A DNA stretch of 23,739 nucleotides from contig JAJPZL010000160.1 of assembly GCA_021204375.1 (NCBI GenBank), forward strand, positions 1-23,739, given 5' to 3'. Origin of the DNA: Bacteroides sp. (GTDB lineage Bacteria > Bacteroidota > Bacteroidia > Bacteroidales > Bacteroidaceae). The notes beneath the pieces are model-generated. The model was not told where the DNA came from. It searched no databases and was given only the letters and a program-made list of their open reading frames with translations. Below, piece by piece: positions 1,810 to 23,739 of this stretch (position 1 is the first letter of the stretch; each line of letters starts with the position of its first letter). The translations under genes were made by a program, and so were the position numbers.

Positions 1810-1817
1810 ACCAAAAT

Positions 1818-2516: not shown

Positions 2517-2526
2517 ATAAACGATT

Positions 2527-4080: not shown

Positions 4081-4109
4081 CAGGGTCCCGTCCCGTTTGA
4101 AAAAATAGT

Positions 4110-6583: not shown

Positions 6584-6591
6584 TAAATTTG
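6584..6591 (+). promoter_or_regulatory. Candidate Bacteroidota -7 promoter element
   Basis: TAAATTTG fits the TAnnTTTG -7 consensus used by the Bacteroidota primary sigma factor and lies 73 bases upstream of the first operon ATG. A convincing TTTG -33 box at the right distance is not visible; only an imperfect TTTCG/TTTTC stretch lies 10-20 bases upstream. A small hairpin, CCTGAA/TTCAGG (6563-6581), overlaps that area. It would serve the whole downstream operon, because gaps between later genes are very short. Confidence 0.4.
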
Positions 6592-6663: not shown

Positions 6664-7365
6664 ATGCAAACTCGCAACATTCTTATATGTGTATGCAATT
6701 CGCACCCGGTCATAGATAAGGAAAAAGCCGCTTTCCTGGCCGCCGTCCTGCACGGGAAGGAAGAAAATGTACAGCTCTGTCCGGATCTGTTCCGCATTAT
6801 GGAACGGCGGGAGATGGTAAAAGAGCTGGAAGGAACCACTATCCTTGCCTGTTATCCACGGGCTATCCGTTCACTCTTTAAGCGGGTAGGAGCAGAGCCC
6901 GGCGAGATCCTGGATATCCGCAGCCATACCCGGGAAGAGATACTGGACCAACTTCATATTGCTTATCCTATAGAGATAGATACCACAGGATTTGTTCGGC
7001 AGATAGCTCACCTTCCTGCGAAACTAGGTACGGATGCCTGGTATCCTGTAATAGACAAAGAACGGTGCGGGGAGTGTGGAAAGTGCTACGACTTCTGCCT
7101 TTTTGGAGTGTATACCGTAGAAAAAGATCGTGTCAAGGTGACAAACCCGCAAAACTGCAAGAACAACTGTCCGGCCTGCGCCCGTATCTGTCCGGCAAAA
7201 GCTATCATATTTCCTAGATATGAAAGATCCCCGATCAACGGGGGAACGGAAGAGGAAGAACAGGCGATCTCCCTGGATACCCAAGCGGTATACAATGACG
7301 CTTTGCGCATGAGACTGAAACATCGCCGGAACAGTATATCCCTTTTGAAAAAAGATAAACTATGA
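6664..7365 (+). CDS. Two-[4Fe-4S] ferredoxin-like protein, first gene of the operon
   Basis: Cytoplasmic protein of 233 residues. The C-terminal half carries two [4Fe-4S] motifs: Cys135, 138, 141, 145 (CGECGKCYDFC) and Cys165, 169, 172, 176 (CKNNCPACARIC, spaced x3-x2-x3). The first 120 residues have four further Cys (about 9, 11, 39, 63) in a pattern that reminds me of heterodisulfide-reductase-like N-terminal domains (ICVCNSH, VQLCPDLF, ILACYPRA), but I cannot assign it to a named family. The likely role is electron transfer to the radical SAM enzyme or other operon partners. The ATG of the radical SAM gene overlaps its stop (ATGA). The frame is intact, unlike most of the following genes. 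Confidence 0.75.
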   Translation: MQTRNILICVCNSHPVIDKEKAAFLAAVLHGKEENVQLCPDLFRIMERREMVKELEGTTILACYPRAIRSLFKRVGAEPGEILDIRSHTREEILDQLHIAYPIEIDTTGFVRQIAHLPAKLGTDAWYPVIDKERCGECGKCYDFCLFGVYTVEKDRVKVTNPQNCKNNCPACARICPAKAIIFPRYERSPINGGTEEEEQAISLDTQAVYNDALRMRLKHRRNSISLLKKDKL

Positions 7366-8581
7366 GAACAAGCGAATATATAGCGACCTTTAAGGCTGCC
7401 TGGCGGGTTCTCCGGGAGTGTTCTCCCTGTCTTGTCTGGAATTTATGTATAACTTTGGCTGGCGCAACCTGCTTAACATTCACCGTTTTGAAAAACGGAT
7501 AGCCCGGGGAAAGCCTTTTTTCCCGCTTTTGTGATGATCTCTGTCACTGAAAGCTGTAATCTTACCTGTAGCGGATGCTGGATATCAGCAGGTGGAAAAC
7601 GATCGCTCTCCCTGACTCAGCTCGACGGGATCATCCGAAGCAGTAAACAGAAAGGCTCTTATTTCTTTGGTAATCAGGGGGGGGGGAGAACCCCTGATAT
7701 ACAAAAGCCTGTTGGATATACTGGAAAAACATGCTGATTGTTACTTTCAACTCTTTACCAACGGTATATTGCTGACCGATGAGGTCGCCATGCGTTTGCG
7801 GAGGATGGGAAACGTAACTCCGCTTATCAGTATTGAAGGGCTTAAAGAAGAGAGCGATGCCCGCCGCGGTAAGAACGATGTCTACGAAAGGACACTTCAG
7901 GGAGTACGTGTCTGCCGCAAGGCAAAACTTATAACCGGGGCAGCAGCCAGTATCTGCAAAAGCAACTACAACGACTTGGTGAACCGTGAATATATTGAAT
8001 TATTGGCCAAAGAGGGGGTACACTACCTTTGGTACTATATATACCGTCCTGTAGGTGCGGATCCGAACCCGGACAATGCGCTGGATAAAGAGCAGATCCG
8101 TTCCCTGCGTGAATTTGTGGTGGAGCAACGAAAAGATGCGCCTTTGCAGATCATAGATGTATACTGGGACGATAAAGGGAACGCCCTCTGCCCGGGAGCC
8201 ATCGGAATGAGTCACCACATATCCCCGTCCGGGGCTGTGGAGTTCTGTCCTCCCCTCCAAATGGCAAAAGAGTATATTAATGAAGAAGGCTTCAACCTGG
8301 CGGAGATATTTGAACAGTCGGATTTCCTGGCAGGGCTCCGTGAGTTGACTTCCGGGAGTTCCCGGGGCTGTATCCTGATGGAAGATCCGGAGAAACTGGT
8401 GCATTTCCTGGAAGAGCAGCGGGCAGGCGATACTACTTCGCGGGGGACCGTGCTGGAGGAGTACCGGAAGATGAGGCCGGTAGCAGGACACGATATGTCC
8501 GGAGAAGAGATACCGGAGAAAAACACCTTCTACAAACTACTGAAGAAAAAATACTTTTTCGGGTTCGGAGCCTATGGATAA
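7362..8581 (+). pseudogene. Radical SAM enzyme, three frameshifts
   Basis: Reconstructed protein of about 406 residues. The catalytic CxxxCxxC motif that binds the SAM-cleaving [4Fe-4S] cluster is seen as CNLTCSGC, its first Cys encoded at 7555-7557, followed by the GGEP motif and the barrel segments FQLFTNG and LISIEGL. The C-terminal third holds further Cys (LCPGAIG, EFCPPLQ, RGCILMED) that could bind an auxiliary cluster. The frame breaks near G3 at 7414-7416, T6 at 7516-7521 and the G10 run at 7677-7686, just before GGEP. The first two are single missing bases. The start at 7362 overlaps the ferredoxin gene. Next to isoprenoid genes, a lipid- or terpenoid-modifying role in the manner of HpnH is conceivable, but that is inference. 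Confidence 0.82.
7677..7686 (+). repeat. G10 homopolymer inside the radical SAM gene
   Basis: Ten consecutive G sit exactly where the family has two Gly before Glu-Pro. A run of 6 or 9 G would keep the frame (GGEP or GGGEP); 10 does not. It is the longest G run in the window. Confidence 0.9.
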
Positions 8582-8593
8582 AGAGAGAAATGC

Positions 8594-9256
8594 ATGGATA
8601 AGCAACAGATATATACCATACCCGCTTCTCCCGGGCAACGCAGGGATCTACGTACCTTGATCGATAGATCTGTTGCCGGGGAATCGTTGGCTCCTCCCTT
8701 ATCCATGGAAGAGTTAATGGAGGTCTCTGACCGGCTTATCCGGGGGAATAACCTGGATCCGGCCCTGCAGAGATGGATAATGGTCGAAATAAATAACGCG
8801 CTCTGGAAGGATACTGTGGCTTCCATTCCGGCGGAGAAGCGAATGTTGTTACTGCCCGGGTGTCTGAGCCATTCGGTCAGGTGTACCGCAGAAACAGACG
8901 AACTGGGGCTGCTTTGCCGGCAGTGTAGGAACTGCTCCATCGCTCCCCTGGAGGCAAAGGCAGAACAACTGGGTATTATGAGTATGGTAGCCGAGGGTTT
9001 CACTTCCGTGATCGGGCTGATAGAGAGCCAGGTAATAGATACCGTCATCGGAGTGGGCTGTCTGGAGTCACTCGAAAAAGTATTCCCCCTGCTGATCAAC
9101 CAGGCTGTTCTCGGAATAGCCATTCCGCTCAATAAAGCGGGGTGCAGGGATACTTCGGTGGATACGGAGTATGTGGAGCAGATGCTTGCTCTGCAATCCG
9201 GGAAGAGAGCCAATCTACTGGATCATGAGCTGGTGAAGAACCAGGTAAAAGAGTAG
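8594..9256 (+). CDS. DUF116-domain protein (probably the N-terminal part of a fusion with the next entry)
   Basis: The 220 residues before the TAG include a DUF116 domain: LLLPGCLSHSVRC, then GLLCRQCRNCSIAPLEAKAEQLG and a final part around VIGVGCLESLEKVFPLL. DUF116 proteins carry conserved Cys likely to bind a metal or Fe-S centre; their reaction is not known to me. The TAG at 9254-9256 looks like an internal stop rather than a natural end: the same frame runs straight on through FKPENLAEML into the polyprenyl synthase, whose own N-terminal helix is otherwise missing. I read the two as one protein of about 517 residues with Trp or a similar residue at the TAG. As two separate genes, they would be 24 bases apart. 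Confidence 0.8.
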   Translation: MDKQQIYTIPASPGQRRDLRTLIDRSVAGESLAPPLSMEELMEVSDRLIRGNNLDPALQRWIMVEINNALWKDTVASIPAEKRMLLLPGCLSHSVRCTAETDELGLLCRQCRNCSIAPLEAKAEQLGIMSMVAEGFTSVIGLIESQVIDTVIGVGCLESLEKVFPLLINQAVLGIAIPLNKAGCRDTSVDTEYVEQMLALQSGKRANLLDHELVKNQVKE

Positions 9257-9280
9257 TTCAAACCGGAAAACCTGGCAGAG

Positions 9281-10146
9281 ATGCTGAGTGACGGAGATGA
9301 CCCTATCACCACTGTAGCCCGTAGCTGGATGGGTGGGGATGAAAAAAGATGGCGGCCTTACCTGCTGGCAGCTACCTGGATGGCAATTACCGGAAAGAAG
9401 GAGATACCTTTGGAGGTACGCCGGGCAGCCATAGCTGTAGAGTGTTTTCATAAAGCCTCTCTGGTACACGACGATATACAGGATAATGATATCTTGCGCT
9501 ATGGTAAAGAGACGGTTCACTCCCGGTACGGAGTACCTGTGGGGATTAATGTCGGTGATATTTTATTGGGTGAGGGATACCGGTTGCTGAGCCTGTGCAA
9601 TAACATCCATCTTATGCAGGAGGCTTCGGTTGCCCATATTGCTCTTTGCAAGGGGCAGGGAATGGAACTACAATGGAGCCTGGAACCCCGGCCGCTGACT
9701 ATGGAGACCGTACTGGAAATATTCTGTACTAAGACCGTACCGGCTTTTGAGGTCTCGTTGATCCTGGGGGTGATCCTTGCAGGGGGGGCGATCCCTCTTT
9801 GCAGGAGGCTCTTCATACCTACGCACGTGCGCTGGGAATAGCTTACCAGTTACAGGACGACGTTACTGATTATGAAACAGCAGAAAAAATAGCGTTGCGT
9901 CCCTCTACTGTTTTAGCGATTATCTGCCGAAAATACCCTGAAGAGTTCTCTGCCCTGTTGAACTGTGGGGATATAAAAGCGTATTTGTTTCATCCGGAAC
10001 GTGCTCCTCTGTTAAAGGTAGCTATAGAAGAGGTATAGAAAATGGCGGAAGCATATCATCAGGAGGCCATTGCTTCCTTGAGGGCGATAAAGAACCCGGA
10101 ATTAAAACGTCTCTTATTCTGGGTCACTAAAAAGATATTAACATGA
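9281..10146 (+). pseudogene. Polyprenyl diphosphate synthase, frameshift and internal TAG
   Basis: All-alpha trans-isoprenyl diphosphate synthase. It shows a variant of the GGKRxRP substrate-binding motif (GGDEKRWRP), the first Asp-rich motif in SLVHDDIQDND and the second in YQLQDDVTDYE, so both Mg2+-binding sites are present. It would condense isopentenyl diphosphate with an allylic diphosphate; chain length cannot be judged safely. The frame breaks in the G7 run at 9782-9788 (one G missing) between LILGVILAGG and DPSLQEAL. A TAG at 10036-10038 interrupts the last stretch, which then continues KMAEAYHQEAIASL to a TGA at 10144-10146, overlapping the next ATG. The segment from the ATG at 9281 lacks the usual N-terminal helix, supporting fusion to DUF116. 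It presumably supplies substrate to the adjacent cyclase-fold proteins. Confidence 0.85.
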
Positions 10147-11018
10147 AACGGACCCTATCCATACAACTCCTGGAGATCCTCCGGAACGGGATCGGGCAAC
10201 TGGGTAAGGAAGCACTGGACCGGGTAAAGGAGTATGTGGTCTCTTCTCAGACCTCTGGCGGTGCCTTCACCGATAAAAGCGGGAAAGAAGATCTCTACTA
10301 CACTCTTTTTGGGTTGATGCTGGCCTACCTGACGGGGCTTCCGGTTGATAGCCGCAGAACAGCACAATACCTGGACAGCGTAGATACCGAAGCACTGGAT
10401 CTTATTCACTATGCCGCATGGATTCGTTGCCGGAACCTGCTTACCCTGATCCGAAGGGGAAAAGCCGGGGCCTTGCTGACACTGTTCCGTAAAGTAGAGA
10501 TACCCCCGTTAAGATCTTTTAAAATGCTACTCAACGGAGATCCCTTTTCGCCCTATACCCGGTTTATCTGGTACTCTTTACTGGAAGATACTCGCCACTC
10601 TGTAGGAAGATCAGCCACCTGGCTGCAGGATCTTCAACCTTACCGGGTATCCACAGGAGGATATGCCAACCGTAAAGGAGCAGGAACCGCGACTGTCAAT
10701 GCAACAGCGGCTGCACTGTCGGTAACCGGGCAGCTGACAGGATATAAATCCAATAACGATATTGTTTATCTGCGTGAGATACAGGATCCTTCGGGAGGTT
10801 ATAAGGCCACTCCCCATACCCCTGTGCCCGATCTTTTATCGACTGCAACCGCGCTGTTCACCCTGCGTAACTATAATATGGAACCGGCTGTGGTTCCCCT
10901 TGATTTTATAGAGGCCCACTGGCTGGACAGCGGAGGATTTGCTCCTACATTACTGGAAAATAGCAGTGATATGGAATATACTTTTTATGGATTATTAGCT
11001 TTAGGAGCATGCAGCTGA
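10143..11018 (+). CDS. Prenyltransferase/squalene-oxidase-repeat protein
   Basis: Intact protein of 291 residues built from alpha/alpha-barrel repeats of the prenyltransferase beta-subunit and terpene-cyclase superfamily. Repeats are recognisable around SGGAFTDKSGKEDLYYTLFG, STGGYANRKGAGTATVNAT, DPSGGYKATPHTPVPDLLST and DSGGFAPTLLENSSDMEYT. It is about half the size of a squalene-hopene cyclase and lacks a clear DxDD acid motif, so it resembles the single-barrel proteins rather than a full cyclase. I do not see the Asp-Cys-His zinc site of protein prenyltransferases with certainty. It begins inside the end of the polyprenyl synthase gene (ATGA) and overlaps the cyclase-like gene by 10 bases, suggesting coupled translation and a joint role on the same isoprenoid. 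Confidence 0.72.
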   Translation: MKRTLSIQLLEILRNGIGQLGKEALDRVKEYVVSSQTSGGAFTDKSGKEDLYYTLFGLMLAYLTGLPVDSRRTAQYLDSVDTEALDLIHYAAWIRCRNLLTLIRRGKAGALLTLFRKVEIPPLRSFKMLLNGDPFSPYTRFIWYSLLEDTRHSVGRSATWLQDLQPYRVSTGGYANRKGAGTATVNATAAALSVTGQLTGYKSNNDIVYLREIQDPSGGYKATPHTPVPDLLSTATALFTLRNYNMEPAVVPLDFIEAHWLDSGGFAPTLLENSSDMEYTFYGLLALGACS

Positions 11019-12731
11019 ATGAAAAGATAGAACAAATGGCAGAGGCTTTATGCCGGGAGCTGAAGCAGCGGTGTACCCCGGGAAAGATCTAGCGGGGAAA
11101 ACTCTCCTCGAGTGCCATTTCCACCTCTGTATCCGTTTTTGCTCTGCATACGATTGACCGGGAGAAATATGCCGGTCATATCCGGAAAGGGAAAGGGTGG
11201 CTTCTCTCTACGATGAGAGAGGATGGTTCCTGGGGAGATACTACCGAAAGCCCCTCCAATATGACGGCTACCCTCCTATCCTATGCCTCTCTCTATGCAC
11301 TGCAGGCAGCCCCTGAAAAAACAAAGAGTACCTCAGGGAGAAGTTCGGGGGAACAACGGATCAGCATATTATAAGCGGAGTACTGGCCTATTACGGAAAA
11401 GACCTCACTTTTTCTGCTCCCATTTTGGTTATGTGTGCCCTTGCGGGAGTTATTGATAGCTGGAACCGGATACCCCGCCTTCCTTTCGAACTCTCCGTAT
11501 TGTCGCAACGGTTGTTCCGTTTCCTGAACTTACCTGTAGTAAGCTATGCTATTCCCGCACTGATCGCCGTGGGTATAGTGCGACACAGGAAAGGAGATAA
11601 AACGATCCTGCATCCTTTGCGGGAAGTATTTATCGGTTCCTCGCTCCGTGTACTGGGAAAATTACAGCCACCAAACGGGGGATACCTTGAGGCTGCCCCC
11701 TCACTGCGTTTGTTTCTATGTGTATGAGTGAGGCGGGATTCCGGGACCATGTAACTACCAGGCGGGCTGCACACTTCCTGGCTTCTACGGTACGGGAAGA
11801 TGGATCGTGGCCCATAGATACCGACCTTGCCGGCTGGGTAACTGCCCTGAGCGTACGTGCCCTGGGCAACGATATCCCCGACAAGGAACAACTGGCACAG
11901 ATGATCCGCGGAAATGCATTTAACTACCGGCATCCCTTTACCGGTGCCCAGGAGGGGGGCTGGGGCTGGACAGACCTGAGCGGATCGGTACCGGATGCGG
12001 ATGATACTTCGGGTACACTGGTCGCCCTTCATACTTTACAGGAGGGAGCCTATACGCCGGAAATAGGAAAAGGAATAGAGTGGCTACTGGCCTTACAGAA
12101 TAACGATGGAGGTATGCCCACCTTTTGTAAAGGGTGGGGAAAGCTACCTTTTGACAGGAGCAGTGCCGATATATCCGCCCACGCTTTGCGGGCATTCCGG
12201 TTATGGTACCCTGTATTGCCTGAAGGCTTACAGAGAAAATGTCGCCGCAGTATGGCACAACTTCTTACCTAGATGGAGCGGGCGCAGGCAGCTGACGGAT
12301 CCTGGACCCCGCTCTGGTTCGGAGACCAGGATGCGGTTGACAAACGTTCCCCTGTCTACGGAACAGCAGTAGCGGTAGACTACCTCTCAGGCTTTAAGAA
12401 CCGGCTTGCCCAGCAAATGACAGAGAAAGGAGTTACTTTTCTGGTAAGTGTTCAGAATCCCGACGGAGGATGGGGGGGAAACAAAGGAGTACCCTCTAAA
12501 GCAACATTGACGGCACGGGCCCTGAGCGCCCTGGCAGCCGGAAGAGAAGCCTGGAAAGATCCGGTATCCGCAGGAGTAGAGTTCCTGTACAGCCGGTTCA
12601 CCGCAGGCCGGATGAACGATCCCGAACCTATCGGGCTCTACTTTGCCCGGTTGTGGTATTCGGAAGAGCTATACAACCTGACATTTACTCTTACAGCATT
12701 GAAGAACATACAAAAAAATTGCAATTTATAA
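11009..12731 (+). pseudogene. Squalene-hopene-cyclase-like class II terpene cyclase, interrupted
   Basis: The reconstructed 574 residues form a double-barrel cyclase, somewhat shorter than typical squalene-hopene cyclases (about 630). The N-terminal RGKLSSSAIS segment matches the conserved GELSSSALSTA region. Later come DGSWGDT, DGSWPIDTDLAGW, the catalytic acid motif DADD at 11994-12005 (PDADDTSG, the DxDD of class II cyclases) and C-terminal QW-type repeats (NDGGMP, QNPDGGWGG). Disruptions: TAG at 11090-11092 where the family has Trp, a lost base in A6 at 11316-11321, a lost base in C5 at 11696-11700, and TAG at 12270-12272. It would protonate and cyclise a polyprenyl chain. No squalene or phytoene synthase is visible, so the substrate is open. 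Confidence 0.83.
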
Positions 12732-12741
12732 AGATAGAACC

Positions 12742-13944
12742 ATGAAAAAAGTACTTGCCTCTTTTGTATTATTAACTACAGTTGTGTTATCCGCACAGAA
12801 TTCCATAGAGTGGCGTAACAACCGCAGCGGTATTTATAACGAGACCGGCCTGCTGAAAGAGTGGCCTGCCGAAGGCCCCCGGATGCTCTGGCATTACGAC
12901 GGACTGGGAGAAGGGCACTCCTCCGTAGCCATAGCCAACAATAAACTCTATGTAACGGGAATGACCGGTAATAAAGGATCCCTGTATGTTTTCGATAAGA
13001 ATGGTAAACTGCTCAATAAAAAAGAATACGGTGATGAGTGGGATGAGAGCTACAACGGATCGCGTGGTACGGTGAATGTTAGTGACGGAAATATATATAT
13101 CATTTCCGGAAGAGGCGACCTCGTCTGTATGGAAGAGAACAGCCTCAACACAGTCTGGAAGAAAAATTTGTTAAAGGAGTTCGATTCCAGCAACATTCAA
13201 TGGGGGATCAACGAAGTTCCCATGGTCATCGGTGATAAGGTCATTGCAACTCCCGGGGGGAAAAAGGATAATATTGTTGCCCTGAATAAAAAGACGGGTG
13301 ACCTTATCTGGAGTTGTGCCGGTGAGGGAGATCTCTCCGCCTATTGCTCTCCTTTGTATATCCGCGACCAGCAAGTACCGCTTATTGTAACGCACACTGC
13401 CAATCATGTGATCGGAGTGAATGCTGATACCGGAGAAAAACTGTGGTCTTACGAAATTAAGAACCGCCACTCGGTGCATGCCAATACTCCTGTCTATTCG
13501 GACGGCATGTTACTTTGTATCAGTGGTTACGGTAAAGGTTCAACAATGCTCAGACTCACCGACGGAGGGTGCAGCGTGGAAAAAGTGTGGGAGGCAACCG
13601 AACTGGATAACCGTATCGGAGGCATGGTGAAAGTAGGTGATCATGCATACGGGTCGGGCGACAGCAACCGCAACTGGTTCTGCGTGAACTGGAAGACAGG
13701 CGAAATTACCTACAGGGAGAAAGGACAGGCAATGGGCACTATCATTGCGGCCGACGGACTGCTGTATTGTTACACCGACAGAGGGAACCTGGTACTTGTA
13801 AAACCGGATCCGGAGAAATTTGATATTATCAGCCAGTTCCCTGTTACTATGGGGACGGACCAGCATTGGGCATATCCTGTCATTTACCAGGACACTATGT
13901 ATGTACGCCACGGTGATACCTTAATGGCCTATGAAATAAAATGA
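12742..13944 (+). CDS. Exported PQQ-type beta-propeller protein, copy A
   Basis: Intact 400-residue protein with a clean signal peptide (MKKVLASFVLLTTVVLSAQ), so periplasmic or otherwise exported. The mature part is made of repeated PQQ-like blades, each ending in motifs such as TGEKLWSYE, TGDLIWSCAGE and ENSLNTVWKKN. It starts with IEWRNNRSGIYNETGLLKEW and LGEGHSSVAIANNKLYV, typical of Bacteroidota PQQ-like proteins. Such propellers often work as scaffolds without binding PQQ, and no PQQ-synthesis gene is present here. It is a close tandem paralog of the next gene, which starts 23 bases after its stop. It is one of the few undamaged genes of the operon. Confidence 0.85.
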   Translation: MKKVLASFVLLTTVVLSAQNSIEWRNNRSGIYNETGLLKEWPAEGPRMLWHYDGLGEGHSSVAIANNKLYVTGMTGNKGSLYVFDKNGKLLNKKEYGDEWDESYNGSRGTVNVSDGNIYIISGRGDLVCMEENSLNTVWKKNLLKEFDSSNIQWGINEVPMVIGDKVIATPGGKKDNIVALNKKTGDLIWSCAGEGDLSAYCSPLYIRDQQVPLIVTHTANHVIGVNADTGEKLWSYEIKNRHSVHANTPVYSDGMLLCISGYGKGSTMLRLTDGGCSVEKVWEATELDNRIGGMVKVGDHAYGSGDSNRNWFCVNWKTGEITYREKGQAMGTIIAADGLLYCYTDRGNLVLVKPDPEKFDIISQFPVTMGTDQHWAYPVIYQDTMYVRHGDTLMAYEIK

Positions 13945-13967
13945 ACCACTCTTTTAATTCCTGAGGT

Positions 13968-15173
13968 ATGAACAAGCTGACAATTCTTTTGCTGGGTCTG
14001 TTGCCGCTCTCCCTGGCGGCACAACAAACTATCCAATGGAGAGGAACAGACCGTACAGGTATCTATAACGAGACCGGACTTTTGAAAGAGTGGCCGGCCG
14101 ACGGACCTGAGATGCTCTGGTACTACGACGGATTGGGAGAGGGACATTCGTCTGTTGCCATAGCGTCGGATAAAATATACATCACCGGAATGACTGATGG
14201 TGAAGGGTATTTGTATGTGTTGGATCTCAACGGTAAATTGCTTCATAAAAAAGAGTATGTTCCCGAATGGGATACCAGTTATAACGGATCACGGGGTACT
14301 CCTACCGTCAGTGACGTGATGATCTATCTGTACAGTGGAACGGGCGATCTCTATTACCTGAATGAACAAACGCTGGATATCGTGTGGAGTAAAAACATAG
14401 AGAGTGATTTCGGAGCCTCCAACATACGCTGGGGGGTAAATGAGTCTCCGTTTGTGATCGGGGAAAAGGTGGTGTTCACTCCCGGAGGGAAAGAGCACAA
14501 TATAGTAGCCCTGAACAAAAGAACGGGAGCTCTTATCTGGAGTTGTGCGGGAGAGGAGGATCTCTCTGCCTATTGCTCGGCCCTCTATCTGACAGACCAG
14601 GAGGTACTTATGGTCGTTACTATCACAGCTAACCATATAATCGGTATCGATGCCGGTACCGGGGAAAAGCTCTGGTCGCATCCTTACAAAAACCAGCGGA
14701 ACGTACATGCCAATACACCGGTGTACAGTAATAACAGGCTACTCTGTACTTTTGAGTATGGAAAGGGGTCTGTGATGTTACAGTTGAAGAACGGAGGCAA
14801 AAAGGTAGAACAGGTATGGGAGCAAAAAGAGATAGATTCGAAAACCGGAAGAATAGTTAAAGTAGGGGATCATGTATATGGTTCCGGAGATAACAATAAA
14901 TATTGGTATGCGGTGAACTGGCAGACCGGAGAGATAAGCTATAAAGACAATACCCTCCCCACCGGAGCCGTTATAGCAGCCGACGGAATGTTGTATTGCT
15001 ATTCCGACCGGGGAGATATAGCCCTGGTAAAGATAACACCGGAAAAGTTTGGGCTGATCAGCCGTTTCCCTGTCACCTTGGGTACCGACCAGCACTGGGC
15101 ACACCCGGTTATCTATCGGGGAACTCTCTATGTACGTCATGGTAATGCACTTATGGCCTATAAAATAAAATAG
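13968..15173 (+). CDS. Exported PQQ-type beta-propeller protein, copy B
   Basis: Intact 401-residue paralog of the preceding protein, alike along its whole length (RTGIYNETGLLKEWPADGP, LGEGHSSVAIASDKIYITG, YNGSRGTPTVSD, MGT/LGTDQHWA near the end). It has its own signal peptide, MNKLTILLLGLLPLSLAAQ. Blade ends include TGEKLWSH, TGALIWSCAGE and TGEISYKD. The pair arose by tandem duplication and diverged, with most differences on blade surfaces, as expected if the two bind different partners. It ends at TAG, and copy A ends with TGA at the equivalent codon, so here TAG is a genuine terminator. Confidence 0.85.
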   Translation: MNKLTILLLGLLPLSLAAQQTIQWRGTDRTGIYNETGLLKEWPADGPEMLWYYDGLGEGHSSVAIASDKIYITGMTDGEGYLYVLDLNGKLLHKKEYVPEWDTSYNGSRGTPTVSDVMIYLYSGTGDLYYLNEQTLDIVWSKNIESDFGASNIRWGVNESPFVIGEKVVFTPGGKEHNIVALNKRTGALIWSCAGEEDLSAYCSALYLTDQEVLMVVTITANHIIGIDAGTGEKLWSHPYKNQRNVHANTPVYSNNRLLCTFEYGKGSVMLQLKNGGKKVEQVWEQKEIDSKTGRIVKVGDHVYGSGDNNKYWYAVNWQTGEISYKDNTLPTGAVIAADGMLYCYSDRGDIALVKITPEKFGLISRFPVTLGTDQHWAHPVIYRGTLYVRHGNALMAYKIK

Positions 15174-15190
15174 CCGGTAACCCCTATAGG

Positions 15191-16621
15191 ATGGAACAAA
15201 AGAAAATAATTACATATACCACCGTTGCTGTGATATTGCTCTATATCGGTGTAATAGCCGGATGGCACATCTATACTCCGGAGCGGCATACGTTTTTGCT
15301 TCACGAACCCGGAGCCGATAATCGTCCCGAAGGAGTGACCCGTACTGTCGATGATGTAGTGATCGGTGAATATTTTATGCGTTATGCCGAAGCTGTTTCT
15401 CCGCTCTCTGGGCGGTGGAGTACCTTCCGGGGTGCAGAACGCAACAACATCCTTGTCACGGTCGAAAGCCTGCATACGGGGCCGGGTGAATTTCCGGTTG
15501 TCTGAAGTGTGGAGACGGGAGAAGGGCACGCAGCTCCGGTCATCTATAACGGAATAGCCTATTTCCTGGATTACGATGAAGCATTGAGTTCCGATGCCTT
15601 GCGTTGCTTCTCCCTGGAGACCGGTGAAGAGCTGTGGCGTCGTTGGTATCGGGTACCCATGAAGCGCAACCACAGTTTCTCCCGGACTGTACCTGTGGTC
15701 AGTGATGAGTATATTATAACTATCGGGCCGCAAGGCCATGTGATGTGCTGTGATCCCGTTACCGGGGAGCTGATATAGACATTGGACCTACAGAAACAAT
15801 ATACGACCGAGGTCCCTTTCTGGTATGCCGGGCAGTGCCCGCTGGTAGATAATGATGTGCTGGTACTGGCCCCTGCCGGCCCGGAAGTATTGATGATCGG
15901 GGTAGACTGCCTGACGGGTGAGATACTTTGGGAAACTCCCAACAGTGTGAACTATAAAATGTCCCACTCTTCTGTAATGCCCATGACACTCGGAGGAAAA
16001 AAGAGTTATGTGTATGCCGGAGTAGGAGGGGTGTGTGGCGTGTCTGCTGAAAAGGAAGATACCGGAAAACTTTTGTGGGATATATCCGGGTGGCAGTCCT
16101 CTGTGATAGCACCTTCCCCTTTACAACTCTCCGGGAACTCTATGTTCCTGGTGGCAGGTTACGGTACAGGAGGAGCTTTGCTGAGGGTAGAGCGTACCGG
16201 GAATACCTGGGTACCTGCTCTTGTAGAGCAGTATAAACCCAGTGAAGGGCTCGCCAGTGAGCAACAGACCACGATCCTTTACAAGGATATGATCATCAGT
16301 GTAATGCCTAAAGACGGAGGAGCCCTGCGGGGCAAACTGGTCTGCTACTCCTCGGGGGACCTTCATACTCCTGTATGGTCGTCGGCAGCCGACGAGCGAT
16401 TCGGATTAGGACCCTACCTGGTTATCAATGGTCATCTTTTTGTCTTTAAAGATGATGGAGAACTCTATTTGTACGAAGTGGGGAACAGGGAGATGAAATT
16501 TATCAAGAAGCAACAGGTCATAGAGGAGGGAGTGGATGCCTGGGGACCTTTGGCGTATGCGGACGGGTATCTGATCTTGAGGGATGCGCATACGGTGAAG
16601 TGTCTGAAAGTAACTATTTAG
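15191..16621 (+). pseudogene. Membrane-anchored PQQ-type beta-propeller protein, two in-frame stops
   Basis: Reconstructed 476-residue protein with an N-terminal anchor helix (YTTVAVILLYIGVIAGW) and a propeller facing the periplasm. Blade ends include TGEELWRRW, TGEILWETP and TGKLLWDIS. A TGA at 15503-15505 falls where VVW-SVETGEGHAAP expects Trp, and a TAG at 15776-15778 falls where a blade ends GELI-W. Both are one G-to-A change from TGG. No frameshift is present, so reading through both stops gives a continuous protein ending at 16621. It is more distant from copies A and B than they are from each other. Confidence 0.8.
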
Positions 16622-16661
16622 TATCTCTCAGTAGCTATTCTATGTATATATTGGAGTATAA

Positions 16662-17596
16662 ATGATAAAAATGAACAGGAGAATCAAATAAACAGGAGTG
16701 AACCTAGCCCTCTTTCTACTGGTAGGAGGGTTTGTCTGGTATATGGTCTCCGGTCTTAACAGACCGGAAATAAGCTATGCCGGAGAGGATTTGACTGCTG
16801 ACGAACCTTTCGTTTCTCCCTGGCAGGAGACAGGATCGTTGGAGGTGCCGGAGGAGATAAACCGCTTTGAACTGGCGGAAGAGAGTCTTTATATTTCGGC
16901 AGGTACCACTGTTTACAGGTACGGTATGGACGGAGAACTTCAACACCGGTTTGCTTCGGAAGAAGGCGTGCGAGATATAGCCCTCTGCAACGGTTCTGTT
17001 TACCTGTTGTATCCTACCCGTATAGAAGTATATACCCCGCAGGGAGAACTTGTTCATTAGTGAGAGGCTTGTAGCGACCTGTCGGATTACTGTTCCTTCA
17101 CATTAACGGAGCAATCTGACTATGTAACGGACGCAGCCAACAAGAACATTTGTAAATATACGCACGAGGGTAATTTTGTGACCTTTATACAGAGCCCCCG
17201 GGGTTTTATTATACCGAGCCACAACTTTGCCATTGAGAATCGGAACGATACGATTTACTGTGTGAACTCAGGCAGGCACCAGGTAGAGATGTATACCCCT
17301 GATGGGGAATTTATTGCCTCTTTCGGCGGACCGGTGGGGGAGAGACTGGCTTTTTTGCCGGATGTTGCAATCCTGCCTATATTGCTTTTACGGCCGAGGG
17401 AGACCTTATTACCTCCGAAAAGGGGAATCCCCTTATCAATACCTTTGAGCGTACCGGGAAACACAAAGAACTCTGGCTGACGGCCCGCCACCTGGGAGGA
17501 GGGAACAGACCCTACGAAGTAAAGACCCGGGGAGAGAAGCTATACGTAGCGGGTAAGAACAAAATAGCTATCTTTCAAAGAACAGATATCGGATGA
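16662..17596 (+). pseudogene. Membrane-anchored NHL-type propeller protein, stops and frameshift
   Basis: Reconstructed protein of about 311 residues. GGAG at 16653 precedes the ATG at 16662 (a second ATG lies at 16671), then MNRRIK, a TAA at 16689-16691, and TGVNLALFLLVGGFVWYMV, an N-terminal anchor helix. The extracytoplasmic part has NHL-like repeats (VYLLYPTRIEVYTPQGEL, NSGRHQVEMYTPDGEFIASF, GCCNPAYIAF, ITSEKGNPLI). Adjacent TAG and TGA at 17058-17063 align with Gln-Leu of the paralog that follows. A base is missing in T6 at 17351-17356; the other frame then restores GCCNP and runs to 17596. Its TGA overlaps the start of the paralog. The function is unknown; NHL propellers usually mediate protein contacts. 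Confidence 0.75.
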
Positions 17597-18675
17597 CGGA
17601 GGGGAGACCTGACCGGAACATCCAAAAATAGAAAAGAAATATTGAACCAGAAAAAGACCTGAAACATGTATCCCGCAGAAAGTTTTTCCAACTCTGTGGC
17701 TCCTTTCTCGCAGGAGGAAGTATCCTCCTGGTATCCGGCTTTTCCCTGCGCAGGATATTCCACTATTCCCGGGGAAATGCTTCCCTACAGGATACCATTA
17801 TAAAACCTGTGCAGGAGGAGGCGTATCGTTCCCCCTATAAACTTGTCTCCTCTTTCGGGACCGGGGAGAAGATAGAAGCCTTTGAGCTGGCTGCAGACAA
17901 ACTCTACATTGTAACCCCCAATGCCGTATCCATATACAACACTCAAAGTGTTTTACTCCATAACTTTGCCATACCCGGACCGGTAAGGGATATCCTGGTG
18001 AAGGAGCAGGATATCTATCTCCTGTATCCCTCCCGTATAGAGGTCTATACGATGCAGGGAGAACTACTCCGACAGTTGGATGCATGCAGTGAACGATCCA
18101 ATTACTGTTCCTTCACGCACACGGGTAACTCTGTGTATGTGACCGATGCGACGATGAAAAATATTTGCCAGTATACGGAGCAGGGAGCCTTTGTCCGCTT
18201 TATACAGAGTCCTAATGGATTTGTTATACCGAGCTATACCTTTAGTATAGAAGCCGTCGGGGATGTTATTTACTGTTCTAACTCCGGCAGGCACCTGGTA
18301 GAGAAGTATGCTCCGGATGGAACCTACCTCGGATCCTTCGGAGAGGCAGGCGGAGCACCGGGCCGGTTTACGGGATGTTGCAATCCGGTGTATCTTTCAC
18401 ATACCCCGGCAGGGAATATCATTACCTCTGAAAAGGGGAACCCCCGTGTCAGTTGCTACGGTAGTGACGGCCGGTTCCATACGCTTTTACTGGATAGCAA
18501 GGCATTGGGAGGAGGTGCGGCAGCTTATCATATAAGAGTGCAGGATGATAAAGTCTATGCGGCCGGGGACCAGGTGCTCTCGGTTTACCACTATGACCCG
18601 GTCCTGACAGGGCAGACTGCCTGTGCCGCCTACGAAGTGAATTGTCCTTTGCGTAAAGGAGTCAAGATCGGATAA
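17593..18675 (+). pseudogene. NHL-type propeller protein with RR-containing leader, early TAG
   Basis: Paralog of the preceding gene. I place the start at the ATG at 17593, because it overlaps the previous stop (ATGA) and is in frame: MTEGRPDRNIQK, then TAG at 17629-17631, then KRNIEPEKDL and a leader, SRRKFFQLCGSFLAGGSILL. The leader resembles that of the ferredoxin encoded next (ERRKFLKICGSVLAGGSIL) and suggests twin-arginine export or a membrane anchor. Without reading through the TAG there is no in-frame ATG before the leader. The propeller repeats match the paralog (IYLLYPSRIEVYTMQGELL, NSGRHLVEKYAPDGTYLGSF, GCCNPVYLSH, ITSEKGNPRVSCY). The full product would be 360 residues. Confidence 0.75.
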
Positions 18676-18678
18676 ATT

Positions 18679-19254
18679 ATGGAAGAGAAGAAACCCGTTA
18701 AAAATAACCCGATGGAACGCCGTAAGTTCCTGAAGATATGCGGTTCCGTACTGGCAGGCGGATCCATACTCGCCCTGGCCGGAGCGTTCGGGAGAAAAGG
18801 GATCAGTTCCGAAGCTACCTACTTCTGGCAGATCGATCCCGGGAAATGCACTCATTGCGGACGGTACGAAACGCACTGTGTATTGCCCCTGTCGGCTGTA
18901 AAATGTATCCATGCCAGCCGGGTGTGCGGTTACTGCGACCTTTGCGGCGGCTACTACCGCAGCAATGTGAAAGAGCTGAATACGGCAGCAGAGAATATGA
19001 TGTGTCCCACCGGAGCTATTGAACGGAAATTTGTAGAAGATCCCTACTTTGAATATACCATTAATGAAAACCTGTGTAACGGATGCGGGAAGTGTGTAAA
19101 AGGGTGTAACTCCTTCGGTAACGGTTCGCTCTACCTGCAGATCAAACAGGAATTATGTAAGAATTGTAACGAATGCCGGATCGCGACTGTCTGTCCGGCG
19201 GATGCTATCACCCGGGTACTCCGTGCCATGGCCTACCAATTGAAAGACGAATGA
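18679..19254 (+). CDS. Exported multi-cluster [4Fe-4S] ferredoxin with twin-arginine leader
   Basis: Intact 191-residue protein. Residues 14-19 (RRKFLK) followed by a hydrophobic stretch look like a twin-arginine signal, as used for folded Fe-S proteins. Cys are arranged in sets able to bind about four clusters: 57, 60, 67 and 76; 83, 86, 89 and 109; 133, 136, 139 and 143 (CNGCGKCVKGC); 160, 163, 166 and 172 (CKNCNECRIATVC). The architecture recalls NapG/NrfC-type electron carriers, and the next gene encodes a NapH-like partner, so the pair may pass electrons across or along the membrane. It starts 3 bases after the NHL gene and overlaps the NapH-like gene by ATGA. Confidence 0.82.
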   Translation: MEEKKPVKNNPMERRKFLKICGSVLAGGSILALAGAFGRKGISSEATYFWQIDPGKCTHCGRYETHCVLPLSAVKCIHASRVCGYCDLCGGYYRSNVKELNTAAENMMCPTGAIERKFVEDPYFEYTINENLCNGCGKCVKGCNSFGNGSLYLQIKQELCKNCNECRIATVCPADAITRVLRAMAYQLKDE

Positions 19255-20519
19255 AAAAAAGCTATCTACCCTGTTCTTGTTCCTTGCCGGCCGGGGATTG
19301 GCGGCACAGAACCGCTTTCCCAAACCCGATTTTGAATCGGGTTACACCTATCCTGACCACTCTTATCCGGTACCCAACGAAGCGCTCTGGACCACGTTGG
19401 ATATTCTTCTGCTGGTGGTGATGATGAGTATTGTAGCCTGGGCGGTGATCAAAAAACGGCAACGGAAACCCATTGTCTAGATCTCCATGCTTTCTGTAGC
19501 CTATTTCGGATTCTTCCGTTCTGGGTGTGTCTGCAGCATCGGAGCCATACAAAACGTCTCCCTGGTACTGGCCGATCCCGGCTATGTTATGCCCCTGAGC
19601 GTTCTCCTCTTTTTTATACTTCCTGTTCTGTTCGCCTTTCTTTTCGGGAGGGCGTTCTGTGCCGGCGTATGTCCGTTGGGCGCACTTCAGGAGATCGTGA
19701 ATGTTAAAATTACCGGTTATCCAAAGCTGTTACCGCTGTACTTGGTATGATCCCCTGGATCTACCTGATATTTGCTATCCTCTATGCCGTAACACGGAGC
19801 AGCTTTATTATCTGTCGCTTTGATCCTTTTATCGGGATATTCCGCCTGGGTGGAGATATCGGACTGATCACTTTTGGCATCCTGCTGTTAATATCGGCGG
19901 TATTTACCGGCCGTCCCTTCTGCCGTTTTATCTGTTCTTACGGAGCGTTACTCAGTCTTTTTTCCCGGGTATCTGTCTGGAAACCTGCCCTTACGCAAAA
20001 AAATGTATCAATTGTGAGCTCTGCCACAACGCCTGTCCGGTAGATACTATTATGCCGCCTTACGAGAACCGTGTTAAAGAGAGTCGTACCCGGGGAGTGC
20101 ACCGGATCCTTCTCTATCTGACAGTGCTTCCCCTGCTGGCAATAGCCGGAGCCCTGTTCATGAACCTGGCAAGCGATAGCCTGAGCCAGGGGAATAAAGA
20201 GATACGCCTCTATGGAATGGTTATGGAGCAGGAAATTAACTCGCAGGACAGGCTCTCGCCGGAGCTTGAAGCGTTTTACGGACAGGGAGGAACGATAGAA
20301 TCCCTCCGGGAAAAAGCAGAAAGAACAGCAAAAGATTTTAAGCTGTACGGAACCATAGTCGGTGCCCTGATCGGGCTTGTCGTCGGGCTCTCGCTGATCG
20401 GATTATCTGTTAAACGTACCCGGAGAACGTATGAAATTAACGGTACAGCCTGCGTAAGCTGTGCCCGTTGTTTTAGTTATTGTCCACAAAATCAGAAAGA
20501 CAAAAAACAAGATATATGA
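19251..20519 (+). pseudogene. NapH-like 4Fe-4S membrane protein, three frameshifts and one TAG
   Basis: The reconstructed 423-residue membrane protein has a signal-like N-terminus (LSTLFLFLAGRGLAAQ), several transmembrane helices and NapH/NosR-family Cys motifs: RSGCVCSIGAIQN, GRAFCAGVCPLGALQ and GRPFCRFICSYGALL. Two ferredoxin-type motifs follow, CINCELCHNACPVD and CVSCARCFSYCPQ. The second CxxxCP motif reads CS instead of CP. Breaks: A7 at 19254-19260 (one A short, right after the ATG), TAG at 19478-19480 where relatives have Trp before LS/ISxLSxxYFGF, a lost base at about 19706-19725, and A7 at 19997-20003. It would carry electrons between the quinone or cytoplasmic side and the exported ferredoxin. 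The start is set by the ATGA overlap. Confidence 0.82.
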
Positions 20520-22321
20520 GGAAAACAATACTAAGGAACATTATTGTGGTATCGGTCGTCTTCATTGTCACCTTTGCCATTATGCCGGTGACCAACTATT
20601 TTCAGGTAAAAGATGTCAATCCTTTACAGAGCGGTGTGGTAGAAACACTGAAAGAGATAAACGATGCCAATGCCGGTAACACTGTGTTACAGGAGCAGAT
20701 CCGGCAGATCGACCTGCTGGCCCGGCGGGCTTATTTCATCCGGATGGACCATCTGATGCACGGAGTCTATATCCTGTTGGGAATGGTTACTGTGTTTTTT
20801 ATTGCTCTACGTTTTTATTACGCCGAAACCAGGCATATACCCGATAAAGAGATTGATCCTATTGATGAATGGACTATCAAAACAGAGGCGCGCAAATACA
20901 TCCGTTGGGTAGTGGCGGGTGTGGCTGCTGTAGCCATCTTCTTCGTAGGGTTGACCTCTCCCTATCTGAGCACCCGACAGGAGAAGAAGCCTGTGGCGGA
21001 GGAACTGGTAGCCTATACGGAAGAGAGCCCGGCGGCTGAAGAGTATGCGGAAGAGCGGGAAGAAGAGGGAGCCGTTCCCGGAGAGGAAGGGGAAGGAGCA
21101 GAGCGGGCGGACGGAGAAGGGGAAGAGCCCCCTCTTACAGGAGCAACCACTCCGGTCGCTGAAGAGCCGGAGATCCCCAAAGTGACTCACCAGGCCTTCC
21201 GGGGGAACAATTCCAACGGATGGTCGGCTGCACGGGGCATTCCTATCAAATGGGATCTGAAGGCAGGAGAGAATATCGCCTGGCGTACCGAAGTACCCCG
21301 TAGCGGGTATAATTCGCCGGTGATCCACGGGAACCGCATTTACCTGACAGGAGCCGATGAGGAGATACGGGAACTTTACTGCTACGACCTTCGTACCGGA
21401 GAACAACTTTGGAAGCTGGCTACAACCGGTATACCGGGTTCACCCGCACAAATGCCCAAAACAACCGAAGATACCGGACTGGCTGCTTCTACGGTCGCTA
21501 CCAATGGCAAACAGGTCTGTGCTATCTTTGCTGCCGGAAATCTTATCTGTGCGGATAGCGAAGGAAAGCAACTCTGGGCCAAAAATCTCGGGGTACCGGA
21601 AAATCATTACGGCTATGCCTCTTCCCTGCTTATCCACAGGAACCTGCTGCTGGTACAGTACGACAACGCCAACTCGCCAAAAGTGGTAGCCCTGGATGTC
21701 AATACGGGAAGTGAGCGGTGGAGCAGGGACCGGACAGAAAAAGTGACCTGGAGTTCGCCCATTATAGCTTCCGTCAATAACTAGTCCCAACTTGTCCTGA
21801 TGGGTAATCCGGGCATAACCGCCTATAATCCCGCTAACGGAGAGCAACTCTGGCGGGTAGAGTGCCTTACAGGTAAAGTAGGAGCCAGTGCCTGTAGTGC
21901 AGCCGGTGTTATTTATGGGGCCAGTGAATATTCTAAACTGGTAGCGATCAATGGGGTAGACGGGACGATCCTGTGGGAATCGGATGAGTTCCTTCCCGAG
22001 GTAGCCAGCCCTGTAGCTACCCGGGAGTATGTATTTGTATCTACCAGTTATGGCGTGATCGCTGCTTTTGACGCTCAGAGCGGCGAAGTGACCACTGTTC
22101 AGGAACTGAATACCGAATTTTACTCATCCCCTATGTTGGTAGAGGGTAAGATATACCAGTTCAGCAACGAGGGTAAAATGTATATTTTTTCTGCCAACGG
22201 GGAACTCCCCCTGCTGGCCTCCTTTGATACCGGCGAGCGTACCTATGCCACTCCTGCCTTTACGGACGGGAGGATCATTGTACGAACAGAAAATAGTATT
22301 TATTGTGTAGCAACGAACTGA
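20516..22321 (+). pseudogene. Membrane-anchored PQQ-type propeller with Glu-rich linker, one in-frame TAG
   Basis: Reconstructed 601-residue protein. Residues 1-150 hold three transmembrane helices (IIVVSVVFIVTFAIM, GVYILLGMVTVFFIAL, VVAGVAAVAIFFVGL). A strongly acidic, low-complexity Glu/Ala/Gly linker of about 60 residues follows, then a PQQ-like propeller from QAFRGNNSNGWSAARGIPI to the end, with blade ends TGEQLWKL, TGSERWSRD and NGEQLWRVE. A TAG at 21782-21784 interrupts SVNN-SQLVLMGNPG; the frame is unchanged on both sides, so it is one gene. The start at 20516 makes an ATGA overlap with the NapH-like gene; an earlier in-frame codon exists but lies inside that gene. The membrane part probably docks onto the Fe-S partners. 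Confidence 0.8.
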
Positions 22322-22322
22322 T

Positions 22323-23739
22323 ATGAGTTGTCAATGTGAACATTCTGCTCCGGAAAGCCGGAAGGCACTGCTTGAAAAGGCCGATGCTATCATTGATCGT
22401 ACGGGGACCGGCCGGGAAATGATCATCCCTCTTTTGCAGGCTTTGCAAAGTGAATTCAACTACCTACCCGCGGAGGTCATTGAAAGAGTCTATGAACGCA
22501 CGGAGATAGACCGGGCGCAACTGATCAGCGTCTCCACTTTTTATTCCCAGTTCCGGCATATCCCGCTGGGAAAACACCTGATCAAGGTCTGTACGGGGAC
22601 CACCTGTCATGTAAAGGGAGCCGGAAATGTGTATGATGCTTTTGTCCGTGAGCTTGGTATTGAAGAGGGGAGTATCACCACAACCGATAAACAGTTCTCC
22701 ATTGAAAAAATAGCCTGTCTGGGGTGTTGTACACTGGCTCCGGTCGTGCAAATTGATGAAAAGATCTACGGACATATGTTGCCCGGAAGGGTGAATGAGG
22801 TAGTAGAGGATTTTCTGGCCGGGCAGCAGGAAAAAGCGAAAGAAGAGTCGGAACGGAAAAAACGGCACATAGCCGGTGAAATACGCCTGGGGATGGGATC
22901 GTGTTGCATGGCAAGTGGTTCAACCGATATTTACCGGGAACTGGAGAGAGCCTCTGAACAACTGGGTATTGATGTAACCATCAAATCGGTAGGCTGTGTC
23001 GGAGTGTGCAACAAAGTTCCCCTGATCGATGTAGTGACCTCCGGGTGGCTATCACCCGTTACTCCAATGTAAAGGCAGCCGAGATCAAAAAGATCCTGCA
23101 TCACCATTTTAAACCGGCATGGTATGTAAACCGGCTCAAGAACAACCTGCTTAACCAGATCGACATGTTCCATACGGATGTAACCTGGGACAATGTGATC
23201 TGGAAACCTGAAGAGGAGCGTACCGGAGTAATAGACAGCTTTCTGGCGGGACAAAAACACATCTCTACCGAAGGGTACGGATTCCTTACTCCTTTACACA
23301 TGGAGGAATACAGGGCCAACGGAGGGTTTGAAGGGCTCTCTAAAGTCCTTCATACCCAATTGCCTGCCCAGGTCATTGACACCATCCTGCGGAGCGGTAT
23401 CCGGGGCCGGGGAGGAGGAGGTTTCCCTACCGGAAAGAAATGGTAGATCGTAGCAGCATCCGGTAAAAAAGAAAAATATGTGATCTGTAACGGGGATGAA
23501 GGGGATCCCGGTGCATTTATGGACCGGATGATGCTGGAGTCTTATCCGTTCCGTGTGATAGAGGGGATGATCATAGCGGCTTATGCTGTAGGAGCCGACA
23601 AGGGGATCTTCTACATACGGGCCGAATACCCGCTTGCCGTGACACGGATACGTACGGCCCTTGAGCTGTGCAGGGAACACAACCTGCTGTTACTTTGTAG
23701 TAACAAAAACGGTGTGGGTACTTTCATCCCTACATTCGT
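22323..23739 (+). pseudogene. NuoE + thioredoxin-like ferredoxin + NuoF fusion (HydC/HydB or Hnd type), right end cut
   Basis: Flavin/Fe-S NAD(P)H dehydrogenase module. The first roughly 165 residues are NuoE-like with the [2Fe-2S] ligands in CTGTTC and CLGCC. A charged linker (QQEKAKEESERKKRH) leads without a stop into a second thioredoxin-like [2Fe-2S] domain (MGSCCMASG, VGCVGVCNKVP). A missing G in G3 at 23043-23045 shifts the frame; the other frame then gives ITRYSNVKAAEIKKIL and the NuoF domain, with GRGGGGFPTGKKW for NADH/FMN and [18 protein letters not shown] at 23444-23446 sits between those two motifs. Family members oxidise or reduce NAD(P)H, often in electron-bifurcating [FeFe]-hydrogenases; the catalytic partner may lie beyond 23739. 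The last 60 bases fit the family poorly in any frame. Confidence 0.83.

Follow-up and report, generated by a model that had tools for sequence, protein, structure and literature searches.

Do the genes that fill most of a Bacteroides contig, running from an iron-sulfur (Fe-S) protein gene to a gene for an NADH dehydrogenase cut by the contig end, form one system, and what could such a system do? The window analysed here is the whole stretch of 23,739 nucleotides, which is the entire contig JAJPZL010000160.1 (C194 in our numbering), one of 506 contigs of a Bacteroides sp. assembly (GCA_021204375.1) that is 79% complete. The genes in question all lie on the + strand between position 6664 and the contig end at 23739, with gaps of at most 76 bp, and a sequence-only reading had taken them for an operon joining isoprenoid cyclisation to Fe-S electron transfer and periplasmic propellers; Pfam scans recovered every family that it named for this row. 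Comparison with relatives upholds its proposal of one conserved system, as both halves are present in 27 of the 30 Bacteroidota loci whose sequence extends 8 kb or more downstream, and two features came in addition that it had not foreseen, namely that the halves are separable modules which also live apart and that the copy in the window is damaged. Tentatively, and with somewhat less than even confidence, we favour a function in which the gene row makes a cyclic polyprenyl lipid that is the dedicated partner of an electron chain from NADH to the periplasm.

A scan of contigs for a fusion of DUF116 with polyprenyl synthase gave at least 589 stretches, at least 561 of which encode a relative, and the best 80 of these loci (43 from Bacteroidota and 37 from others; numbered L below, genomes being numbered G) were analysed. 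In Bacteroidota, the order is an Fe-S protein (fd1), a radical SAM protein, the DUF116-polyprenyl synthase, a toroid protein (cycA) and a DxDD class II cyclase (cycB), followed by the electron half with PQQ-type and NHL propellers, a Tat-type ferredoxin, a NapH-like protein, a membrane propeller and NuoE-NuoF. All 34 Bacteroidota loci with sufficient sequence upstream have both fd1 and the radical SAM gene, and 33 of the 35 with sufficient sequence downstream have both cycA and cycB. The electron half was scored as present when at least three of six electron genes were found, the exceptions being L034, L057 (propeller genes only, then contig end) and L089. The search for conserved order in intact genomes that had been suggested for this locus thus met with such order, and the two halves are regular neighbours. 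In the intact relative G059, 18 genes stand in a row with gaps of -17 to 45 bp. At the junction between the cyclase and the first propeller, 15 of 32 loci have the two genes overlapping, and 12 more have them no further than 50 bp apart (the junction set comprised 47 loci, 36 having the cyclase and a labelled gene after it, with start codons picked mechanically; L029, L039, L056 and G292 were left out, since a different labelled gene followed the cyclase). Several isolates carry the locus unbroken over the sequence examined, including Mangrovibacterium marinum DSM 28823, Plebeiobacterium marinum D04 and several Parabacteroides isolates.

DUF116 and the polyprenyl synthase, which had been listed as separate genes, were correctly assigned to their families; in relatives they form one fused gene, which is found in one open frame in genomes of the same genus (G023, where it is cut by the contig end, G029 and G035) and of other families (G059 and G052), and they appear as two pieces in the window because the frame is broken there. 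Only four of 37 genomes of the genus have a DUF116 match above the cut-off, and the locus is therefore patchy within it. Outside Bacteroidota, the isoprenoid half is found in Verrucomicrobia, Planctomycetes, Acidobacteria and further groups, with both upstream genes in at least 18 of 32 loci and both cyclase genes in at least 14 of 30, counts that are lower bounds because the calling of open reading frames (ORFs) was crude in GC-rich contigs. None of 24 such loci has three or more electron genes beside the isoprenoid half; single propeller genes adjoin the row in L060, L063, L065 and L094.

The proteins of the isoprenoid half carry motifs that point to the synthesis and cyclisation of a long prenyl chain. 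The DUF116 domain (PF01976) scores 108-110 bits against a curated cut-off of 25 and has seven conserved Cys residues. Its structure model consists of four strands alternating with helices plus a Cys-rich loop, the loop being of low confidence and the rest moderate to good, and in a fold look-up of the DUF116-synthase model all matches were filled by the synthase part. In the synthase (PF00348), both Asp-rich motifs of trans-polyprenyl diphosphate synthases are kept, and KASL(V/I)H precedes the first of them in 46 of 46 rows, which places a small residue (A) five places before the motif. In this enzyme family, a small residue in that position means a long chain, and the sequence thus suggests a long-chain product. 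The acid motif of class II cyclases is present in cycB as DADDT or DGDDT in 14 of 15 aligned rows, the only row lacking it being a fragment of the broken window gene, so that the proposed isoprenoid cyclisation holds at the level of the family. Among solved structures, cycB matches squalene-hopene cyclase and bacterial class II cyclases, and the nearest ones include class II enzymes acting on prenyl diphosphates, such as ent-copalyl diphosphate synthase; a near solved cyclase, 7xq4, is presumably a drimenyl-type enzyme. The idea of a hopanoid-like product has lost ground, since cycB reaches 75.5 bits against the hopene cyclase family and stays far below its cut-off of 431. The other toroid protein, cycA, is related to RabGGTase beta by profile (E 2e-10) and matches PF00432 at 25.4 (cut-off 26.5) in the window protein and at 44, above the cut-off, in a relative. 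It lacks DxDD in 34 of 35 rows. Protein prenyltransferase beta subunits have Asp, Cys and His as zinc ligands; at the presumed positions of these ligands, cycA carries PD(L/M/I)LST (30 of 35 rows) and DxEY (all 35), and Cys and His seem to be absent. The radical SAM protein is nearest to heme-type families such as NirJ/Ahb-like proteins, far under their cut-offs, and scores 45.9 bits against HpnH (adenosylhopane synthase), whose cut-off is 225.

In the electron half, Tat motifs, membrane segments and Cys sets were seen. The NuoE-NuoF fusion combines NuoE, flavin mononucleotide (FMN), 4Fe-4S and ferredoxin domains and lies under the NuoF cut-off (449 vs 559), and no ion-pumping membrane arm of complex I or Rnf and no hydrogenase catalytic subunit was found in the Pfam scans of the row. 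Seven hydrophobic stretches and conserved paired Fe-S Cys motifs mark the NapH-like protein, whose scores (58.3 bits vs 213 for NapH and 62.3 vs 1000 for NosR) are below both family cut-offs. The PQQ-type propellers are similar at the family level to BamB and to PQQ enzymes. Among the NHL propellers, the Tat-type form beside the isoprenoid half (L014 4684-5730 and relatives) has eight conserved Cys residues, and when five unlinked and two anchored forms were added to the alignment, only the vicinal Cys pair of GCCNP was kept. Six of these eight residues are not kept in the aligned non-Tat forms. A bound cofactor may be inferred for the Tat-type propeller from its Cys set, and its structure model is an NHL propeller nearest to Brat/TRIM NHL domains. 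These families and their predicted topology agree with the earlier proposal in which the oxidation of NADH would feed a membrane complex bearing exported propellers.

The relationship between the two halves was examined in an order-level sample of 393 genomes, in which DUF116 occurred in 37, the NapH gene in 70 and the cyclase in 16. Fused type was assigned by score and frame length, which divided the DUF116 genomes into 17 fused and 20 non-fused, and all 16 cyclase genomes fell among the 17. The NapH gene was present in 15 of the 17 fused-type genomes vs 55 of the remaining 376 (p = 1.5e-10, with no correction for kinship), and in the control, with non-fused DUF116, in five of 20 (p = 0.27). 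Among 19 non-Bacteroidota genomes with the isoprenoid half (the genome of L064 lies outside this count), 11 had a NapH-like match, with at least 360 bits in nine. Each half is a module of its own and also occurs without the other. In most stretches, the unlinked electron module keeps its own order (propellers, NHL, Tat ferredoxin, NapH-like protein, membrane propeller, NuoE-NuoF, 2Fe-2S protein and lipoprotein propeller), L147 (G277), L144 and L148 being partial or rearranged, and in G303 and G147 the two modules sit on different contigs. In a tree of NapH-like proteins, joined loci fell in two supported places, which would most simply reflect two separate joinings. G292 holds both modules together, yet its NapH lies within the unlinked group; L144 carries the label unjoined in this tree only provisionally, as it stands at a contig end.

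Under the favoured reading, the synthase part would lengthen a prenyl diphosphate into a long chain, whose end the DxDD enzyme would cyclise by protonation. The lipid would be modified by redox chemistry involving the radical SAM protein, fd1 and the Cys-rich DUF116 domain, with the toroid cycA perhaps holding the chain. NuoE-NuoF with its ferredoxin tail would draw electrons from NADH, which would pass via the NapH-like protein, the exported ferredoxin and the propellers to a presumed acceptor, and the lipid might anchor or shuttle electrons in this chain, alongside menaquinone. Gene order, co-occurrence, motifs and signals are observations, from which the lipid, its redox role, the electron direction and the acceptor are deduced. 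As each half also occurs alone, the lipid would count as an add-on to an electron module that is separate from it. A more far-reaching version, which we consider unlikely, is that the locus represents a dedicated class of membrane electron carrier in Bacteroidota, a long polyprenyl cyclised by a class II enzyme and modified by radical SAM and DUF116 proteins, which would dock to an NADH-driven conduit of NapH type. It would equally improbably extend to exported Fe-S NHL and PQQ-like propellers that pass electrons outside, and, with as little confidence, to a lipid pathway common to Verrucomicrobia, Planctomycetes, Acidobacteria and Armatimonadetes.

Several observations weigh against the lipid as dedicated partner of the chain. 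Since each half occurs apart, neither needs the other everywhere: two fused-type genomes (G202, 97% complete, and G199, 82%) lack the NapH gene, 55 of the 70 genomes with the NapH gene have no fusion, and eight of the 19 non-Bacteroidota genomes with the isoprenoid half gave no NapH match at E 1e-20. The tree may also reflect one early joining followed by repeated splits. No headgroup gene such as a UbiA-type transferase was found in the Pfam scans of the row, and frame changes or in-frame stops disrupt eight of the 14 genes in the window. In addition, MenA has much the same frequency in the 19 genomes that carry the isoprenoid half (13) as in the 24 controls (15), and the lipid is therefore not replacing menaquinone, as far as MenA shows; this replacement, considered as a candidate function, was rejected as a simple model. 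The futalosine route to menaquinone uses other enzymes, and a missing MenA is no proof of missing menaquinone. Within the 43-genome set, MenA was seen in four of 12 genomes with only the electron half vs 11 of 12 with neither half, which may reflect the other menaquinone route.

An unlikely alternative, though the likeliest of the three considered, is that the product is a structural membrane lipid with a hopanoid-like role (a role and not the hopanoid pathway), while the electron half is merely co-regulated and responds to the same stress. It would agree with the many genomes in which the halves live apart, and the LytTR two-component pair that lies upstream of the row in 10 of 25 Bacteroidota loci with sufficient sequence might place unrelated functions under joint control. 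The cell envelope also commonly contains propeller proteins. The association is, however, one-sided and strong (15 of 17), the joining apparently arose twice, and the genes at the junction often overlap; moreover, the isoprenoid half has its own ferredoxin-type protein, radical SAM protein and Cys-rich DUF116 domain.

The handling of metals or metalloids, in which the lipid would bind or carry a metal and the NADH chain would reduce it at the cell surface, is considered improbable. It draws on accompanying genes: a CobW GTPase above 300 bits was found in eight of 19 genomes with the isoprenoid half vs none of 24 without it, and in seven of the eight stretches read it adjoins a GlpF-like channel, with an ArsR-type regulator near one (L188). 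The eight genomes are not independent because three of them share one genus, CobW at this score is missing in the other 11 of the 19, and GlpF-like channels pass glycerol too. Outside Bacteroidota, of 26 loci with sufficient sequence, 12 have CobW and 12 a GcvH-like protein before the row, and ArsC-like or ArsP-like genes stand near a few loci; arsenic as the main function was rejected as too sparsely supported, with ArsP-like genes in one locus and ArsC-like genes in five of all stretches. The least well placed alternative, and a very improbable one, is an extra quinone-like or other aromatic redox lipid whose headgroup would come from the radical SAM and DUF116 proteins, with no dependence on the cyclase fold. 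In its favour, the heme/NirJ-type relationship of the radical SAM protein, far under the family cut-offs, and a known locus pairing prenyl-lipid synthesis with electron export (PMC9888254) could be cited; against it stand the lack of a UbiA-type prenyltransferase in the same scans and the conserved DxDD cyclase, needless for a plain quinone.

The coordinates and state of the genes in the window are given in Table 1. The six genes marked there as intact or stop-free are open, and the damage may represent decay or an error of sequencing or consensus. Long ORFs (at least 250 aa) cover a fraction of 0.37 of the locus and 0.25 of its second half, vs a mean of 0.67 in 20 other stretches of the assembly, a mean that counts one N-only stretch as 1.00 and would be about 0.66 without it; four conserved genes in those other stretches have one frame each. 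Five ORFs at 1180-5947 appear open, unlike 7362-23739, and a transporter ORF at the left contig end (7-1247) is split across two frames. The operon runs past 23739, as contig C302 of the same genome (L199, L195) resumes NuoE-NuoF at residue 459, the window stopping at residue 456. It continues with a 2Fe-2S protein, a lipoprotein propeller, an ABC transporter pair, a glycosyltransferase and a propeller, and further on come a BioB-like radical SAM protein, a C_GCAxxG_C_C protein and a broken CobW GTPase.

Table 1. Genes of the row in the window, with their state in this copy and the evidence for their assignment.
Feature	Position	Strand	State	Evidence
fd1, Fe-S protein (two [4Fe-4S] motifs) at the head of the isoprenoid module	6664..7365	+	Intact	Pfam Fer4, 8 conserved Cys
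Radical SAM protein (~405 aa in relatives)	7362..8581	+	Broken: in-frame stops and frame change	PF04055
DUF116-polyprenyl diphosphate synthase fusion	8594..10140	+	Broken: two frames and stops	PF01976, PF00348 above cut-off
cycA, single alpha-alpha toroid, related to RabGGTase beta	10143..11018	+	Intact	PF00432
cycB, class II cyclase family with DxDD	11009..12731	+	Broken: three frames with stops	PF13243; PF13249 in relative
PQQ-type (BamB-like) propeller 1, signal-like N-terminus	12742..13944	+	Intact	PF13360
PQQ-type propeller 2, signal-like N-terminus	13968..15173	+	Intact	PF13360
PQQ-type propeller 3 (pqqC), N-terminal anchor	15191..16621	+	Broken: in-frame stop	PF13360; one frame by tblastn, with two ORFs in it
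NHL propeller 1, membrane-anchored type	16698..17578	+	Broken	
NHL propeller 2, Tat-type signal and GCCNP	17641..18675	+	Stop-free frame, usual start codon not seen	
Tat-type polyferredoxin	18679..19254	+	Intact	17 conserved Cys in family
NapH/NosR-like membrane Fe-S protein	19244..20519	+	Broken: three frames	
pqqMem, membrane-anchored PQQ-type propeller	20516..22321	+	Broken: one in-frame stop	
NuoE-NuoF fusion	22323..23739	+	Broken frame, cut by contig end, continues on C302	

With regard to regulation, a promoter-type site TAnnTTTG is present at 6584-6591, ahead of the fd1 start at 6664, and was rejected as a promoter because 17 such sites were found vs 11.8 expected and 8 of 100 shuffles were equally high. 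The two-box form of the promoter gave a single site, which lies inside the operon, and the Rfam scan gave no match at gathering thresholds. The histidine kinase and LytTR regulator upstream of the row were observed at L019 (5394-7168), L141 (3501-5340), L029, L030, L035-L039, L045, L055 and L059, and a pair of the same type follows the channel and CobW in L191 and L193. A GlpF-like channel stands beside the CobW GTPase in L036, L038, L039, L055, L059 and L188-L194, several of these channels having a Cys-rich tail; in Bacteroidota, channel and CobW were counted in 5 of 25 loci. The GcvH-like protein has the lipoyl-lysine setting EGFKA in eight of eight aligned rows (e.g., L090 2337-2801). As a dispersed partner in Bacteroidales it was discarded, with ordinary GcvH-size scores in both groups (39 of 43 genomes). 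In G292, an ArsP-like permease and an ArsC-like phosphatase (L137 803-2651) lie directly before fd1 of the separately joined locus.

If the favoured reading is true, there would be a lipid pathway spread over several phyla whose product is named in no literature that was found, and gut, rumen and marine Bacteroidota would have an undescribed way of moving electrons from NADH out of the cytoplasm. The pairing of isoprenoid and electron halves would then indicate a membrane redox lipid of a new kind, and DUF116, a family without known function, would gain a concrete setting. The isolates with an unbroken locus make the question directly testable.

Among known systems, the hopanoid pathway with its squalene-hopene cyclase has in common with the row the class II cyclase fold with DxDD; unlike this pathway, the row contains a polyprenyl synthase, and no squalene synthase family was found in its Pfam scans, which covered the row. 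As in NapGH and NosR systems, a NapH-like membrane Fe-S protein adjoins a Tat-type polyferredoxin, whereas here these are linked to NuoE-NuoF and propellers, and the Pfam scans of the row gave neither a nitrate reductase nor an N2O reductase family. The NADH modules of NuoE-NuoF/HydB type also have NuoE, NuoF and ferredoxin domains, and the row differs from them in that its scans gave neither the complex I membrane arm nor a hydrogenase catalytic subunit. A fusion of DUF116 with polyprenyl synthetase has been noted in Pirellula staleyi, with a proposed role in electron transfer (PMC5898192); it is of the same kind as the fusion here, and the passage that mentions it describes no operon, cyclase or electron half. 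This fusion was the only element found in print, and literature searches in open-licence papers yielded no description of the gene set or of its pairing, in line with the earlier view that the combination is undescribed. The nearest working analogue is the locus for flavin-based extracellular electron transfer (FLEET), which comprises genes for Ndh2, EetA/B, DmkA/DmkB, PplA and Fmn (PMC9888254) and likewise brings an NADH dehydrogenase, outward electron proteins and prenyl-lipid synthesis together in one locus. Unlike FLEET, the row uses a NuoE-NuoF type enzyme, a NapH-like protein, a Tat ferredoxin and a DxDD cyclase, and its Pfam scans contain no FMN-binding, flavin-transferase or UbiA-type family. 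The two loci have an idea in common, and among their proteins only the polyprenyl-lipid step.

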